Shown here: one piece after another, positions 12,730 to 46,693 of the stretch | Position numbering within the stretch: position 1 is the first letter of the stretch | How the letters are laid out: every line of letters begins with the position of its first letter | Virus record (IMG/VR): IMGVR_UViG_3300031772_000001 | Coordinates: 62,001-126,000 of that record | Strand: one strand, 5' to 3' | DNA: 64,000 nucleotides | DNA from: a virus | Made by a program: the position numbers and the translations under genes | The notes under the pieces: generated by a model | What the model was told of the DNA's origin: nothing | Database searches by the model: none | What the model saw: the letters and a program-made list of their open reading frames with translations, nothing else

Positions 12730-13941
12730 TCAAAGTCTTTCTTTTGATTTCAAAAAATCTATCACCGCAATCTCGTTCTTAATAACCCACTCCTCTACCT
12801 GCCTCCGTCCTTGACAAGTCTCTTTCATACCATTCATGTCAATGTAGTAGTATGACTTATTCTGAGTCATCGCCCCCTCCTCCTGAAGAAGGAAGGTAAA
12901 GGCCCGAATATTAGAAATCCCCCTCCCAAAGAAAACTGATATGATTGTCTTCACAAAAGGCATAGTTACTTTGTTCTTTGGACACTCCGCAGTAATATCT
13001 GCTCCTATCTTCCTCTTTACACCACCGGACTCCTCTTCAATCCAACTTGCAAGAGACATATCCACCCGAATATCAGGGTAAAACTCTAAGGCAACACCTC
13101 CCGCTGCCTTAACAACAGAAGGACCAAAGAAGTTTATCTTGGTTCTTTTTTGATTCACAATGACAAGACTCGATCCGGCACGAGCAACAGCATCCTTATA
13201 CTTCATCAAAAATGAACTTGACATCCTTGAATGCCATCCCGGTTCAACCTCTTCAATTTTTAACTCCCCTGAAACAATTTTCTCAGAAAGTAAAGATGTA
13301 ACAGAATCCACCACAATAATATCTGGTATTCTATTACAATTCAAATACGAATCCATGATGTCTTCTGTATGTGCGAACGTACCAACCTTCAAAACAGTGA
13401 ATGACTTCTTATAATAAGGTTCCAACCCCACACCAAAAATCAAACTTTCATTAAGTGCCTTCTCAGCGTCCAAGTACAGAGCAACCCCGCCCATCTGACA
13501 AACCTTCAGACACCAACAAAGGACACAAGTAGTCTTTCCCAGACCTGAATCCGAGTGAAGCTCTATGATCCTACCTCTTGGTATCCCACCACCAAAAATA
13601 TAATTAAACCCAATTGATCCACTATCAATCATCTTGACTTCACTACTAATTGTAAATCTCTCTGCAAAATTCTGGCATAAAGTGTCGTAGTCTTTTGAAG
13701 ATTCCTTTGACGATCCCCTCTTACCAGACTTCCCTTTAATAGTAACAACAGGTGTAGCTGTTTCCATTTGCACCACAGAAGCAGTAGGGGCAGAAACTCC
13801 CGCACTCTCTGTCTGACTCATCAAAGGCTGAGGAGCTTCTGACTTCTCAATTACGGTTTCTGGAGTAATCAAAGGCTTCTCTCTTGGAGGAATACTTGCT
13901 ACAGCAGGAACACCATTCTTCTTTTTATCAAGATCAAGCAT
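12730..13941 (-). CDS. RecA/UvsX-type recombinase
   Basis: 403 aa. A proline/threonine-rich leader (1-95) precedes a RecA core: GGGIPRGRIIELH, Walker A SDSGLGKTT (130-138), ALYLDAEKAL (a RecA-type DAExAL motif, 154-163) and Walker B DIIVVDS (207-213). A loop near residue 275 corresponds to L2 (KAAGGVALEFY). Role: strand exchange and recombination-dependent replication. Next to RuvC and SSB genes. The N-terminal extension is unusual for RecA and may bind a partner. Confidence 0.9.
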   Translation of the reverse strand: MLDLDKKKNGVPAVASIPPREKPLITPETVIEKSEAPQPLMSQTESAGVSAPTASVVQMETATPVVTIKGKSGKRGSSKESSKDYDTLCQNFAERFTISSEVKMIDSGSIGFNYIFGGGIPRGRIIELHSDSGLGKTTCVLCWCLKVCQMGGVALYLDAEKALNESLIFGVGLEPYYKKSFTVLKVGTFAHTEDIMDSYLNCNRIPDIIVVDSVTSLLSEKIVSGELKIEEVEPGWHSRMSSSFLMKYKDAVARAGSSLVIVNQKRTKINFFGPSVVKAAGGVALEFYPDIRVDMSLASWIEEESGGVKRKIGADITAECPKNKVTMPFVKTIISVFFGRGISNIRAFTFLLQEEGAMTQNKSYYYIDMNGMKETCQGRRQVEEWVIKNEIAVIDFLKSKERL

Positions 13942-25440: not shown

Positions 25441-25668
25441 CTACTCCTGTTTTTTCTCAACAAGATTCTCAATTGGCTTCCCGCACTTCTGGCAAACACC
25501 AGCAACTTCCGCGCAACCACGACACGCAACCGACACTTGAGGATAAAAATCATACTCCCCATGAAGACGGCATACCTGCTTTCCCTGGTAGACAAACAGG
25601 GAAGGACACGGGGAATACATCTCCAAACACCTTGCGCAAAGCTGAAAAACTCGTTCTGGGTTATTCAT
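25441..25668 (-). CDS. multi-cysteine zinc protein, 75 aa
   Basis: Eight cysteines with CARC, CRGC and CQKCGK pairs: at least one and perhaps two zinc ribbons. Coupled in a row of small genes. Function unknown. Confidence 0.65.
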   Translation of the reverse strand: MNNPERVFQLCARCLEMYSPCPSLFVYQGKQVCRLHGEYDFYPQVSVACRGCAEVAGVCQKCGKPIENLVEKKQE

Positions 25669-30784: not shown

Positions 30785-31010
30785 TGGTAAAGTCTATCAC
30801 ACCTACACAACAAAAATCGGGAAGACGGCAAGTTGGGAAATCCTAAGTACAACAACTAACAACAACCAATGAAGGTTTGTGTATGTAAGGTCAGCAACAA
30901 CAAGATAAATATAGCCCTACATTGCCACAACCATGACGTAAAGGAAATTCCCCGGCAACAAAGCAAGCCCTGTCACCCTTGCCGTCTATCCCGCATTATC
31001 CCACGTACAC

Positions 31011-31905: not shown

Positions 31906-33123
31906 CTACTTCTTACCGGGAACACTCAAATCCAAAGACAGATCACGCGCCGCCTTCGCAGTCATAATCTCCATGAAGTTCGTAGCACCATTTCCACCAC
32001 CAACCGACCCACCCATCACCGTAGTCGGAACAATCTGACCTGAATATTTTGAAAAAGCCTCTGACCACATCTGCTGAACAGCCTTGTATGCTTCGAGCTT
32101 CTTCTCCAAAGCACCATCCGCTGACATAATCAACTTACGCTTTTCAGCTTCACCCTCTCCCTCCAAAATGAGCTTCTTCTTTGTAAACTCCGCTGCATCC
32201 CGCATCAAAGAAGCAACAGCCTTTTCCTTCTCAGCATCAGTTACCGCTGCTTGTTTCTCCTGCTCCTTCTGATACTTCACCTTCATCACAGCAGCAAGAC
32301 CTTCAGCTTCCGCAGTCAACTTATCCTGATTCGCACGGATAGCGTTCTGCTTCGCTACCTCCGTCTGCAATGTCTGATCCCTCTGCTTCTTAATCATATC
32401 ATCCACTGCATTATCAAACTTCGGTACGTCAATCTGACACTGCGTTACTCGACACCCCAACTGCTCCAAAACTGTAGGATTTCTTAGTGGTTTATTCGTA
32501 CTGTCAAGCACAATCTCAGTCATTCGTACACGCTCGGAATCACCTACAGCCCTATGAATCCACTTATCAACAGAACGTGTCTGATAAGTACCATACATCA
32601 ACTGATCCTCAATCTCACTCTGCAAAACAGCAAGAGTAGTATAAGCCTCTCGTGCTGAATGAAGATTCGCTGAAAGTTTAATTGCATTCGCACCTACAGG
32701 CACAATGCCGTTACTCACAAGATGCTCAAACCCTCCGGCAAACTGACTTTTAATTGCCTTCATCTGTTCAGAATTTGACGGAAGAGAAACACGAAGTTGA
32801 GCACGGATCAAAGCACGAGTACCATCATTGAAAATAACAGGAACTTCATCAGCCTCAAAACTCTTGTGTCCCGGTGCCTGTCCAAAAACTACTGTCACTA
32901 CCTGACGGTACACATCCACATGACCAAGAAATTTCCCATACGGCCCTGCCGTTGTCTTTACATGAAGCGCACCACCAAGATCCTGCACAATCACAAACTC
33001 ACCGGCCTTATTGAACCCCACAATGTTAAGAGCAACAACCAAAGCAATCAACAAAGCACCACCAAGACCAATAAGAGACAAAATGGACTTGAGAGGCACA
33101 ACAGACGGATCATTCTTTGGCAT
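31906..33123 (-). CDS. SPFH/band-7 (prohibitin/flotillin-like) membrane protein
   Basis: 405 aa. One N-terminal transmembrane helix (about 14-36) anchors an SPFH domain (residues 40-235: GEFVIVQDLGG, VPVIFNDGTRALIRAQLRV). A long Ala/Glu/Lys coiled coil follows (255-360: AEAEGLAAVMKVKYQKEQEK, EGEGEAEKRKL) and a Gly-rich tail. The family forms ring or cage oligomers in membranes. In a phage it may protect or remodel the host membrane. The 72-aa membrane protein upstream is a likely partner. Confidence 0.9.
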   Translation of the reverse strand: MPKNDPSVVPLKSILSLIGLGGALLIALVVALNIVGFNKAGEFVIVQDLGGALHVKTTAGPYGKFLGHVDVYRQVVTVVFGQAPGHKSFEADEVPVIFNDGTRALIRAQLRVSLPSNSEQMKAIKSQFAGGFEHLVSNGIVPVGANAIKLSANLHSAREAYTTLAVLQSEIEDQLMYGTYQTRSVDKWIHRAVGDSERVRMTEIVLDSTNKPLRNPTVLEQLGCRVTQCQIDVPKFDNAVDDMIKKQRDQTLQTEVAKQNAIRANQDKLTAEAEGLAAVMKVKYQKEQEKQAAVTDAEKEKAVASLMRDAAEFTKKKLILEGEGEAEKRKLIMSADGALEKKLEAYKAVQQMWSEAFSKYSGQIVPTTVMGGSVGGGNGATNFMEIMTAKAARDLSLDLSVPGKK

Positions 33124-33652: not shown

Positions 33653-34042
33653 TCATACGCCTTCTGGTTTTTTACACACTACCCTATCCCGAAAGAAAGG
33701 CTCATCACAATCCTCAAGACGAGCAAGGTTTGGTACTTCAATTTTGAACTTCTTACACATAGGAATACGGATATTTTCATACTGATCACTAACCACAAGA
33801 TCAAGAAACTCACACCCCCGGCACGTCCCATCCTCTACCTTGAAAAAAGAAAACTTCCGAGCCACATTCTTAGCGAAGTACGAACCCACGGAAGGAGCAC
33901 CCAGACACTCGATAAACACGTTCTCCGGCACGTCATGGTACTCGTACAAAGAACCATTCGTAAACGCGGCATGGAGTACCTGCTTACTTGCAATGTATCC
34001 CAAAGAACTAACATTAGAAGATTTAACTGGAATCAACTTCAT
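33653..34042 (-). CDS. KTSC-domain protein
   Basis: 129 aa. Residues 5-62 match KTSC (VKSSNVSSLGY, LHAAFTNGSLYEYHDVP, GAPSVGSYFAKNV). The C-terminal half adds cysteines at CRGC and a basic end. KTSC occurs alone in phages and fused to lysyl-tRNA synthetases; its function is unknown. GGGAGGTAGG precedes the ATG. Confidence 0.85.
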   Translation of the reverse strand: MKLIPVKSSNVSSLGYIASKQVLHAAFTNGSLYEYHDVPENVFIECLGAPSVGSYFAKNVARKFSFFKVEDGTCRGCEFLDLVVSDQYENIRIPMCKKFKIEVPNLARLEDCDEPFFRDRVVCKKPEGV

Positions 34043-34100
34043 AATCCTACCTCCCTATAAAACAATACGAATATTTCACAAAAAAGAAAAGAAAAAGTGA

Positions 34101-34127
34101 GGGGCAGAGGGTCATTCCCTCCACCCC
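34101..34127 (-). terminator. strong rho-independent terminator
   Basis: 11-bp stem GGGGTGGAGGG/CCCTCTGCCCC (two G-T pairs), AATGA loop, then CACTTTTTCTTTTC on the minus strand. It ends the non-coding region, not a protein gene, as expected for a non-coding RNA. Confidence 0.88.
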
Positions 34128-34334
34128 TTTCTCAGCTACCCGACGATAGACTCCATGCACGGTATCCTCGGAAAAGAGAACAGTCTACCATAATCTGCCG
34201 TTACACAGGGGCTTTTTTAGGTACAGAGCATAACGCTCCCTGTACTTTGTTAGCCCGAAGCCGTCCAAAGATGTAAAGCTCCTACGTGAACGATCTCAAT
34301 ATTCAATGAAGTAGCATAAATCCTCCAAAATCAA
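34128..34334 (-). ncRNA. candidate structured RNA element E
   Basis: Minus strand holds GTACAG...CTGTAC with an inner AGC/GCT pair, enclosed by GGGCT/AGCCC, and a separate 8-bp GGTAGACT/AGTCTATC stem. A 5-codon frame (ATG after GGAGGATTT) is the only translation signal. Ends at the terminator 34101-34127. Not a family I recognise. Confidence 0.4.
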
Positions 34335-34503
34335 AAAAGAAACAAGATAACAGGGTTCTGCACGTTTACTCCCTACATTATCGGAAGCTGGTTTGCACTT
34401 TGCAGACAAGAAAGGGTTCCCTCAAAAAGTGCTGAAAGTCATCCCGAAAGATGGCAGTCAACAATGTTCCCACCTTTGCCACACCCTATTACTTGTTTCT
34501 CTT
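34335..34503 (-). ncRNA. candidate structured RNA element D
   Basis: Closed by a 21-bp long-range stem with one bulge: AAGAGAAACAAG then TAATAGGGT pairs with ACCCTGTTA-t-CTTGTTTCTTTT. It begins one base after the stop codon of the gene at 34505 and is followed by TTTTTTGATTTT. Inside, GCACTTT/AAAGTGC and GGGAACCC form further hairpins. The closing stem with T-run is terminator-like but encloses about 125 nt. Confidence 0.5.
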
Positions 34504-34504
34504 G

Positions 34505-35026
34505 TTATACGATTTCAACGTACTCACTCATCAGGTTTATTGCCTCGTGATACCCGTCACATCTTGGCAACCTCTCGTAAAACTCGTCTGCCCTATCACC
34601 AAGACCAGCCCGATTGAGAGTCTTACCCACCTTCCCGGCAAGAACAAACACATTACCATCACCCTCAAGCAGCTTACACTCAGGCTTCAAAACCTCTACC
34701 TTCGGAGACTCCTCAGTCACTTGTTTTTGAAAATACTGAAGAGACTCGGAAGGTATCAACTCCCGATTATTCCGAAAATAATCATCATCCCAAGAAAAAC
34801 CACCCTGAAGATGCATTGGATGTATGGCGAGCTTCGGAATATCCTTGTCATCAAACTCAACAAGAACATCACTTCGTCCACCTTCACCACCCTTTCCGGG
34901 CATAGTATTAAACTGGTGAATGATCTTCGGAGAAGTAAAACCCAACTCAACAAAACCGCCGTAAAGCCCCTTCTTGTCCTCATCCGACTCAACAAGCAGA
35001 CCAATCATCACCGCTCTCGTTGACAT
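34505..35026 (-). CDS. hypothetical protein, 173 aa
   Basis: N-terminal part has VMIGLLVESDEDKKGLYGGFVELGFTS. The C-terminal 55 residues (LLEGDGNVFVLAGKVGKTLNRAG, YHEAINLMSEYVEI) match a short domain common in phage and bacterial small proteins (dGNaFai...V..aLr.aG). Function unknown. It is flanked on both sides by the structured RNA segments. Confidence 0.7.
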   Translation of the reverse strand: MSTRAVMIGLLVESDEDKKGLYGGFVELGFTSPKIIHQFNTMPGKGGEGGRSDVLVEFDDKDIPKLAIHPMHLQGGFSWDDDYFRNNRELIPSESLQYFQKQVTEESPKVEVLKPECKLLEGDGNVFVLAGKVGKTLNRAGLGDRADEFYERLPRCDGYHEAINLMSEYVEIV

Positions 35027-35057
35027 ACAACATCCTTTTCTTAAAAGTTAAAAAGAA

Positions 35058-35212
35058 AGGTTGACAACACCGCCGAGCGAAGCGAAGCCCTTGCAGGGGC
35101 CAAGGATTTATCAGTTGGAAATCTGCAACTTTCCCACTGTTTTAGCCTTGTGAAAAATTTGCTCATCACCCACATGCCATTTACGGTCAGAGGATCTGTA
35201 AGCTGTCAACCT
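35058..35212 (-). ncRNA. candidate structured RNA element C
   Basis: Closing stem AGGTTGACA/TGTCAACCT (9 bp) spanning 155 nt and followed by TTCTTTTTAA on the minus strand. Inner hairpin CCTTG/CAAGG at 35089-35105 and an AGAGG/CCTCT pair. Contains the GCGAAGCGAAGC dodecamer (35077-35088) also found in the tmRNA. Confidence 0.5.
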
Positions 35213-35226
35213 CTCAAAGAACAAAA

Positions 35227-35348
35227 TGGCAGTAGACGTTAGCCTGATCGTCAACAAAAGACTTATGCTTCAGTTACATTGCTGTAACCAAGCCCTGTAC
35301 TCCACAACCATCCTTCTCAAATCAAGCCTTTGCCGTTGTCTACTGCCA
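35227..35348 (-). ncRNA. candidate structured RNA element B
   Basis: Closing stem TGGCAGTAGAC/GTCTACTGCCA (11 bp) spanning 122 nt, followed by TTTTGTTC. Inside, GTTACA-GCAA-TGTAAC is a perfect 6-bp hairpin with a GNRA tetraloop (35273-35288), a hallmark of folded RNA. Confidence 0.55.
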
Positions 35349-35361
35349 AAAACTTCTGTAA

Positions 35362-35452
35362 AATGGTGTGGAAGGCAACCTGCCCGATACGGTTGTTGTC
35401 TAAGAACCGCCGTCGCTTGATCGCATCCCTTAGACGGAATTTCCACACCATT
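35362..35452 (-). ncRNA. candidate structured RNA element A
   Basis: Closing stem AATGGTGTGGAA/TTCCACACCATT (12 bp perfect) spanning 91 nt. Inside, GTCTAAG/CTTAGAC (7 bp) and CAACC/GGTTG hairpins. Preceded by TTGAAG-18-TATAGA, a possible promoter, and followed by TTTTACAGAAGTTTTT. Confidence 0.55.
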
Positions 35453-35477
35453 CTATAAAAGTCTTCAACAAAAATCT

Positions 35478-35669
35478 TCAACAATTCACAGAATTAGGAT
35501 GGGAGTCGTAATCTTCGTAATCCTCCTCTACCTTCTCCGTTAATACCAACGGTGATGGACGTTCACACTGTATATACGAAACTGGCACGCAACCATCACA
35601 GTTTAATGGGTCGCGTTTGTATTGATCACAAATCACAAGTACCTCCCACTTCGTCACTCCCTTAGTCAA
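35478..35669 (-). CDS. cysteine-rich small protein, 63 aa
   Basis: TTG start at 35669 with GAGGG six bases upstream; a GTG at 35657 is the alternative. Five cysteines (including CDGC) and an acidic EEDYEDYD tail. Last gene of the P4 operon before the structured RNA region. Confidence 0.55.
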   Translation of the reverse strand: MTKGVTKWEVLVICDQYKRDPLNCDGCVPVSYIQCERPSPLVLTEKVEEDYEDYDSHPNSVNC

Positions 35670-36593: not shown

Positions 36594-37109
36594 TTACATA
36601 GGCATTAGATCATCCATAGAGTCCATCTTCAACTCCACATCATCGTAATGAATCAAAAAATATTCATTGCACCCGGCATTGATCGAACGCACCGCCAAGT
36701 CCTGGAACATCACTATATCCCCCACAACCACGTTAGGACAGTGGTACATTCGTCCCTTTGGCACCTCCACTACCTGCTGACCAAACGAGTTTCTTTTACC
36801 CCCACCTTGCGACCAGTACACAGACGGACCCCCAAGCCGGACCACCCTACCAATTCTCCACACACGCCAACACGTAGAGGGGATAATCAACCCTACCTTT
36901 GTTTTAACTTCTTTTTGAATAGGCTCAATCATTATATATGGGCCAATAATCTTAATCATGTCCGCTACAACCAAACTCCGGCCACATCCCAGACACTTCC
37001 GGGCTGCTCTCGCCTCGGCGTTAATTTTTTCAAAATTATCGTCTTCAATCTTGAACTCCTTCGTACCAAGGCAATACCTACAAGCATAAACATCTTCCTT
37101 CGTAACCAT
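36594..37109 (-). CDS. GroES-like co-chaperonin with N-terminal zinc ribbon
   Basis: 171 aa. Residues 10-45 form a CRYC...CLGC ribbon. From residue 50 the chain follows GroES: IKIIGPYIMIEPIQKEVKTKVGLIIP, GRVVRLG, VVVGDIVMFQDLA, EYFLIHYDDVELKM. The mobile-loop region is short (KTKVGLIIP) and an insert is present near 90-115. Such phage co-chaperonins adapt host GroEL for capsid folding. The zinc ribbon fusion is unusual. Confidence 0.8.
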   Translation of the reverse strand: MVTKEDVYACRYCLGTKEFKIEDDNFEKINAEARAARKCLGCGRSLVVADMIKIIGPYIMIEPIQKEVKTKVGLIIPSTCWRVWRIGRVVRLGGPSVYWSQGGGKRNSFGQQVVEVPKGRMYHCPNVVVGDIVMFQDLAVRSINAGCNEYFLIHYDDVELKMDSMDDLMPM

Positions 37110-46056: not shown

Positions 46057-46104
46057 TGACTATGACCTTTCCTAATATATTCAACTAACCCCTAATAATC
46101 ATTC

Positions 46105-46140
46105 AAATAAGAGAAGAAATTTTATTCTCTTCTCTTATTT
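46105..46140. terminator. hairpin terminator between tmRNA and helicase operon
   Basis: Perfect 13-bp AT-rich stem AAATAAGAGAAGA/TCTTCTCTTATTT with a 10-base loop. The T run follows on the plus strand (TTTTTTAG); the minus-strand side continues TTTGAATG. It may act in both directions or as an RNA end for tmRNA transcripts. Confidence 0.5.
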
Positions 46141-46280
46141 TTTAGAGAAACAGAACATTATATGTATGAGTGTTAGCCTTCTCCACTATGGTATTATCCA
46201 TAAAGGATTGAGCCAATTGACTCCGAAGAAAAGAAGAAGGTAGGAGCATCACCAAACACTCCAATAAACAAAGAAACAAG

Positions 46281-46693
46281 TGGAGGTGGGGGGAATTGAA
46301 CCCCCGTCCAGAAAATACTCAATATTGACATCTACGTGTGTAGTCTCAGTTAAGTGTCATGATAAGTATACTGAGGCCAAAATACTTACCACCAAGTTTC
46401 AGGTATTTTTCGGTGCTTTATGTCATGAAACCACCCACTTGCACCTAACCCTACTTTCGCCCACACACTCGGATACTTGTGTGGGCTAGTCACCTTTAGT
46501 TAGGCGACGCTGACAACTGGCATCGCCAGATCACACATCGCCGCGAAGCGAAGCGCAAAAGCAACACCAGCGTTGACCGTCGATTTCTCGGCAGCTAACA
46601 TCTCCCCCGGACGATTTATGAGGCCAACCGGGAGAACCCTCCTCAACACGCAGTCAATACTTTATACATTCTGTCGAAAACCAGATCACCCCC
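46281..46693 (-). ncRNA. ssrA: transfer-messenger RNA (tmRNA)
   Basis: 413 nt. 5' end GGGGGTG-ATCTGG-TTTTCGACAGA pairs with the 3' CACCTCC to form the acceptor (7 bp, one G-T). T-arm GGGGG-TTCAATT-CCCCC; preceding GGAC as in other tmRNAs. PK1 conserved core CGGTTGGCCTCATAAA with GAGG/CCTC and TCTCCC/GGGAGA stems. A tag frame starts soon after PK1 at or near GCC GAG AAA and ends with TAA at 46500-46502. A later 8-bp hairpin CCCACACA/TGTGTGGG fits PK2-PK4. CCA is not encoded. Function: rescue of stalled ribosomes with host SmpB; no smpB is seen here. Confidence 0.93.

Follow-up and report, generated by a model that had tools for sequence, protein, structure and literature searches.

The small stable RNAs C and D of phage T4 (species 1 and 2), of 139 and 119 nt, lie in tandem between genes of a myovirus and are annotated without function. 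The packaging RNA of phi29 is also a phage RNA of about 120–174 nt, and its two ends are paired. GOLLD and ROOL are single RNAs of hundreds of nucleotides, belong to Rfam families and usually occur near tRNAs (PMC12286853, PMC7567579). In phage K, small and long non-coding RNAs with no assigned function were detected in intergenic regions by RNA-seq (PMC9241854). Here, a locus is described in which several small RNA modules, each closed by a terminal helix and followed by a U-run, lie around and between the genes of a phage.

The phage and its relative

The window, i.e. the whole stretch of DNA analysed (64,000 bases), corresponds to bases 62001–126000 of the 167,660-base IMG/VR virus record IMGVR_UViG_3300031772_000001, in which nearly all genes lie on the minus strand. 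The window encodes a Gp23-like capsid protein, a T4-like portal, a tail sheath, a family-A DNA polymerase, a UvsX-like recombinase and a GroES-like protein, as well as a tmRNA and a tRNA-Met. The isolates nearest by capsid protein are Listeria phage LIS04, Bacillus phage SP-15 and Streptococcus phage vB_SagM-GXN1 (30–39% identity). A close relative, IMGVR_UViG_3300036774_000066 (G001; 156,609 bases), has a capsid protein 94% and a polymerase 73% identical, and its gene order is largely collinear. No other close relative was found by searching IMG/VR with the polymerase, the capsid protein and a 173-aa protein of the locus, or genome contigs with the polymerase.

Three large genes gave intein-splicing matches (L003:6253-9483, L003:9776-12298 and G000:C1:158970-159353) that were not found in the relative; one of them encodes the T4-like portal protein, with an HNH domain. 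ARAGORN and Rfam identified only the tRNA-Met and the tmRNA, both elsewhere in the window, and a tRNA or tmRNA identity of the modules was rejected. The tmRNA (window 46278–46693) specifies an unusual 30-residue tag, AEKSTVNAGVAFALRFAAMCDLAMPVVSVA, with an ending other than the usual ALAA; it was not found in the relative, and its matches in phage databases cover about 35 nt at one end only. Downstream of the tmRNA slot, both phages have a long hairpin around AAATTTCTTCTC (window 46057–46277; L016:12306-12521), the paired positions of which differ, TAAGAGAAGAGAA versus ACAGGAGAGGGAA, in what looks like a compensatory change.

Architecture of the locus

An earlier note on this DNA, made from the letters alone, had drawn attention to two gene-free stretches of 462 and 451 nt beside one 173-aa gene. 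Both are present, at 34043–34504 and 35027–35477, on either side of the ORF 34505–35026. The note called them exceptional, and they do rank among the most stable gaps of the genome, but their size is not unique, the gap of the tmRNA being longer. Neither stretch showed a coding signal, and no ORF within them looks coding by codon usage. On the minus (transcribed) strand, helices of 11 to 21 bp close four modules, A to D, of 91–169 nt within 34043–35480. Each of the four is followed by a U-run, which the note had seen after most modules. No promoter above chance was found next to the modules. The features are:

35359–35455, minus strand: module A, two inner hairpins enclosed by the closing helix TAGAATGGTGTGGAA / TTCCACACCATTTTA, with a U-run at its 3' arm
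35227–35348, minus strand: module B, 11-bp closing helix TGGCAGTAGAC / GTCTACTGCCA, then TTTT; span 122 nt, dG −20.9
35055–35215, minus strand: module C, 14-bp closing helix GAGAGGTTGACAGC / GTTGTCAACCTTTC, then TTTTT; dG −23.0
34505–35026, minus strand: 173-aa gene between the modules; residues 111–172 match phrog_1933 (function unassigned)
34335–34503, minus strand: module D, 21-bp closing helix with one bulge, span 169 nt, U-run after it
34134–34317, minus strand: element E, weakly structured, between D and the terminator
34100–34128, minus strand: strong intrinsic terminator, 12-bp stem, 5-nt loop, U-rich tail
33653–34042, minus strand: KTSC-domain gene directly downstream of the array; orthologue in the relative (49%)

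The stem lengths and spans first described for A to D were recovered, with pair probabilities mostly of 0.8–1.0 when folded in the context of the whole stretch. In module A, 12 Watson-Crick pairs lie inside a 15-bp helix (span 91–97 nt; pair probabilities 0.97–1.0), and in module C the 9 bp extend to 14 with two G-U pairs (span 155–161 nt). A GTTACA-GCAA-TGTAAC hairpin proposed within B can form, but is absent as such from the minimum free energy structure. The description of the locus as an array of structured RNA elements is supported by comparison with dinucleotide-shuffled sequences, which gave z-scores of −5.3 and −4.7 for the 5' and 3' segments and of −5.1, −3.9, −3.0 and −4.3 for A, B, C and D. 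Element E, thought to consist of smaller hairpins, is not convincingly structured (z −1.75).

Nearly all of the excess stability resides in the closing helices, the interiors being ordinary (z −2.1 to +0.3), and spacer therefore fits these interiors as well as functional RNA does. The strong terminator with which the array was said to end, at 34128–34100, is the only ordinary one at the locus (GC-rich stem, short loop, U-run). None occurs at the U-runs of A to D, where local hairpins amount to only −5.8 to −9.7 kcal/mol; these are too weak, in keeping with the view that the modules are not ordinary terminators. The transcribed strand folds more stably in 10 out of 10 modules from both phages, an outcome that a G/T-rich strand favours.

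Further modules in both genomes

For each TTTT run, the bases immediately preceding it were paired with those 55–200 nt upstream to find the best duplex; sites were counted in gaps on the transcribed strand after filtering against ordinary local hairpins, and 200 shuffles served as reference. The gaps of this phage contain seven strong long-range helices with a U-run against 0.4–0.5 expected, a number reached in none of the 200 shuffles, and the opposite strand of the gaps contains two. One of the seven (25549–25618) lies in a stretch that may be coding. The strongest gap sites include A, B, C and D together with two new modules:

30817–30993, minus strand: module G, 15-bp bulged closing helix CGGGATAGACGGCAAG / CTTGCCGTCTTCCCG, then TTTTT; dG −27.9
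36876–36971 of the record, outside the window: module F, same closed architecture

In the relative, the scan returned three modules, R146, R86 and R72, against 0.3 expected. A fourth, X, was hidden inside an over-extended ORF call, and an extra structured RNA of 289 nt (R289) lies upstream of the KTSC gene. In six further phages with related capsids, counts on the coding strand were near background. Hence, the modules are a property of this lineage and not of large phages in general.

Placement of the modules

With the exception of B and C, which follow A and B, respectively, with no gene between, each module is flanked by the stop codon of the preceding gene and the ribosome-binding site of the following one. 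The start lies 1 nt past the stop codon for D (that of the 173-aa gene), a few nt past it for F, R72, R146 and R86, and 15–25 nt past it for X, G and A. The U-run with which each module ends lies shortly before the next gene, save where another module comes next. Judged from the sequence, the closed architecture of the modules, their non-randomness, their strand and their placement are established.

Three slots match between the two phages. The first, upstream of the gene preceding KTSC, holds A to C here and X in the relative. The second, directly upstream of KTSC, holds D and E here and R289 in the relative, each with a terminator. The third, one gene after a 175-aa orthologue, holds G here and the 72-nt R72 in the relative. 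Between the first and the second slot, the two phages carry unrelated genes, for the 173-aa protein with its phrog_1933 domain here, of which no counterpart was found in the relative, and for a pilin-like protein there. In addition, R146 of the relative occupies the gap that holds tRNA-Met in this phage, as expected if the modules are stable RNA genes.

As the two sequences indicate, the interval from KTSC to GroES is a variable region. In this phage, it is taken up by the RNA array and by small, unrelated genes. The corresponding interval of the relative (99818–102722; L015, L016) encodes a papain-like protease and the pilin-like protein, which has the prepilin motif FTLIELMVV at its N terminus; both names were assigned by eye from the sequence. 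A 405-aa protein with a high coding score (window 31906–33123; phrog_11908, function unassigned) was likewise not found in the relative. KTSC itself was present in one out of 20 other phage records examined.

Searches for homology and targets

Homology between modules, within or between the phages, was at chance level in pairwise alignments, shared k-mers and blastn. ACAGGG occurs five times among the modules against 0.6 expected, which is not beyond the shuffled maxima. Element E and R289 aligned with p < 0.005 when the terminators were included and with p 0.06 without them, and R289 was not recovered with a covariance model built on an E domain. As the modules share no alignable homology or motif, there is no covariation support, and this is the main weakness of the case.

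An Rfam search, as the earlier note had proposed, returned no match at the locus or at its counterpart in the relative, at gathering as well as relaxed thresholds (E up to 10 for the locus); one such search covered L011–L017. Recognisable GOLLD, ROOL, OLE, riboswitches and others are thereby excluded. DNA similarity in phage and plasmid records was at chance level only, and an exact 23-mer of module A had no occurrence in IMG/VR.

A 22-nt stretch at the 3' end of D (34329–34350) matches, as its complement and with a single mismatch, the phage's own UvsX-like recombinase mRNA (window 13134–13155, plus strand). None of 150 shuffles gave as good a match, and the sequence is of low complexity. This is the best antisense match of all modules and the only notable one inside the phage; at the level of sequence, it offers one lead for a target.

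Discussion

The best explanation, to which we give about an even chance, is that the modules constitute a lineage-specific set of small, structured, stable and trans-acting RNAs (about 90–170 nt for A to D), the ends of which are set by the terminal helix and the U-run. The modules would be transcribed together with neighbouring genes and released from the operon transcripts either through termination at the U-run or through processing. The terminal helix with its U-run would end the RNA or define its 3' end and would shield the 5' and 3' ends from exonucleases, which would allow discrete, stable RNAs to accumulate during infection. In trans, these RNAs might act on targets of the host or of the phage, for example as antisense RNAs or as decoys of host factors. 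Transcription, release and stability are thus presumed along with trans action, the least certain step of the proposal.

The main rival, which we regard as somewhat unlikely, is that the modules serve the preceding genes as very-large-loop terminators or as stability elements of the 3' UTR, with functionless interiors. Most modules begin 0–25 nt past a stop codon and end with a U-run, and the confinement of the excess stability to the closing helix would suit such a role. However, the same genomes have ordinary short-loop terminators and hence no need for loops of 70–150 nt. Intrinsic termination is inefficient with long loops. This rival also leaves the large interiors unexplained, as well as the succession of A, B and C after a single gene.

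Alternatively, the modules could be cis-acting, riboswitch-like leaders, A to C regulating the 173-aa gene and D and E, with the terminator, attenuating the KTSC gene. A structured RNA with a terminator does precede KTSC in both phages, the 173-aa gene lies just behind the end of C, and the pilin-like gene is downstream of X. Yet the gene behind A to C bears no relation to the one behind X, different genes follow F, R72 and others, no alternative antiterminator pairing came to light, and three consecutive closed units are more than a normal leader would have. We therefore consider regulation in cis improbable.

The phage origin and the hundreds of structured non-coding nucleotides had suggested a single large ornate RNA, either GOLLD/ROOL-like or related to these. 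This is now very improbable, since Rfam gave no match, a coding gene splits the array, the modules fold as closed units of their own, which are also found singly at other places in the genome, and tRNAs are not adjacent, the single tRNA of the window being 16 kb away. DNA-level inverted repeats such as MITE-like insertion remnants, which the modules resemble as short inverted terminal repeats around 50–150 bp, are hardly credible either, as all terminal repeats differ, the interiors share nothing, the U-runs lie on one strand and the strongest helices are strongly strand-biased.

The matching slots raise a further idea, namely that closed RNAs were kept in the same slots while their sequences turned over fully, only helix, U-run and position being retained. 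We hold this to be unlikely. If true, this is the kind of turnover to be expected from RNAs engaged in an arms race with the host, e.g. decoys of a defence component or antisense RNAs directed at it. A class that keeps its position but not its sequence would be missed by similarity and covariation searches. The class appears to be undescribed in Rfam and in the literature searched. Phage non-coding RNAs usually come from sequence similarity or RNA-seq; here, the architecture reveals the class. It provides a simple finding rule for other phages, namely a terminal helix with a U-run located between a stop codon and a ribosome-binding site, together with ten concrete candidates.

Comparison with known RNAs

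Retron non-coding RNAs and Y RNAs are similar in that pairing of the 5' and 3' ends encloses an interior of comparable size, and Y RNAs also end in U. They differ in their protein partners, as neither phage encodes a reverse transcriptase (PF00078; control genomes were positive) or a Ro60/TROVE protein (PF05731), the latter result concerning a phage-encoded Ro60 and not that of a host. Both results speak against these identities. GOLLD and ROOL compare as large structured phage RNAs with no assigned function. The non-coding RNAs of phage K were defined by expression and not by a shared closed architecture; DNA searches of phage records found no relation to them. The T4 RNAs C and D are located in a tRNA cluster. 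A tRNA-like GGTTCGAATCC element is present in rnaC, and both RNAs lack a long closing helix followed by a U-run. Finally, the packaging RNA of phi29 is one RNA of the motor of a small podovirus, whereas the modules described here are many and dispersed, in a myovirus with a T4-like portal.
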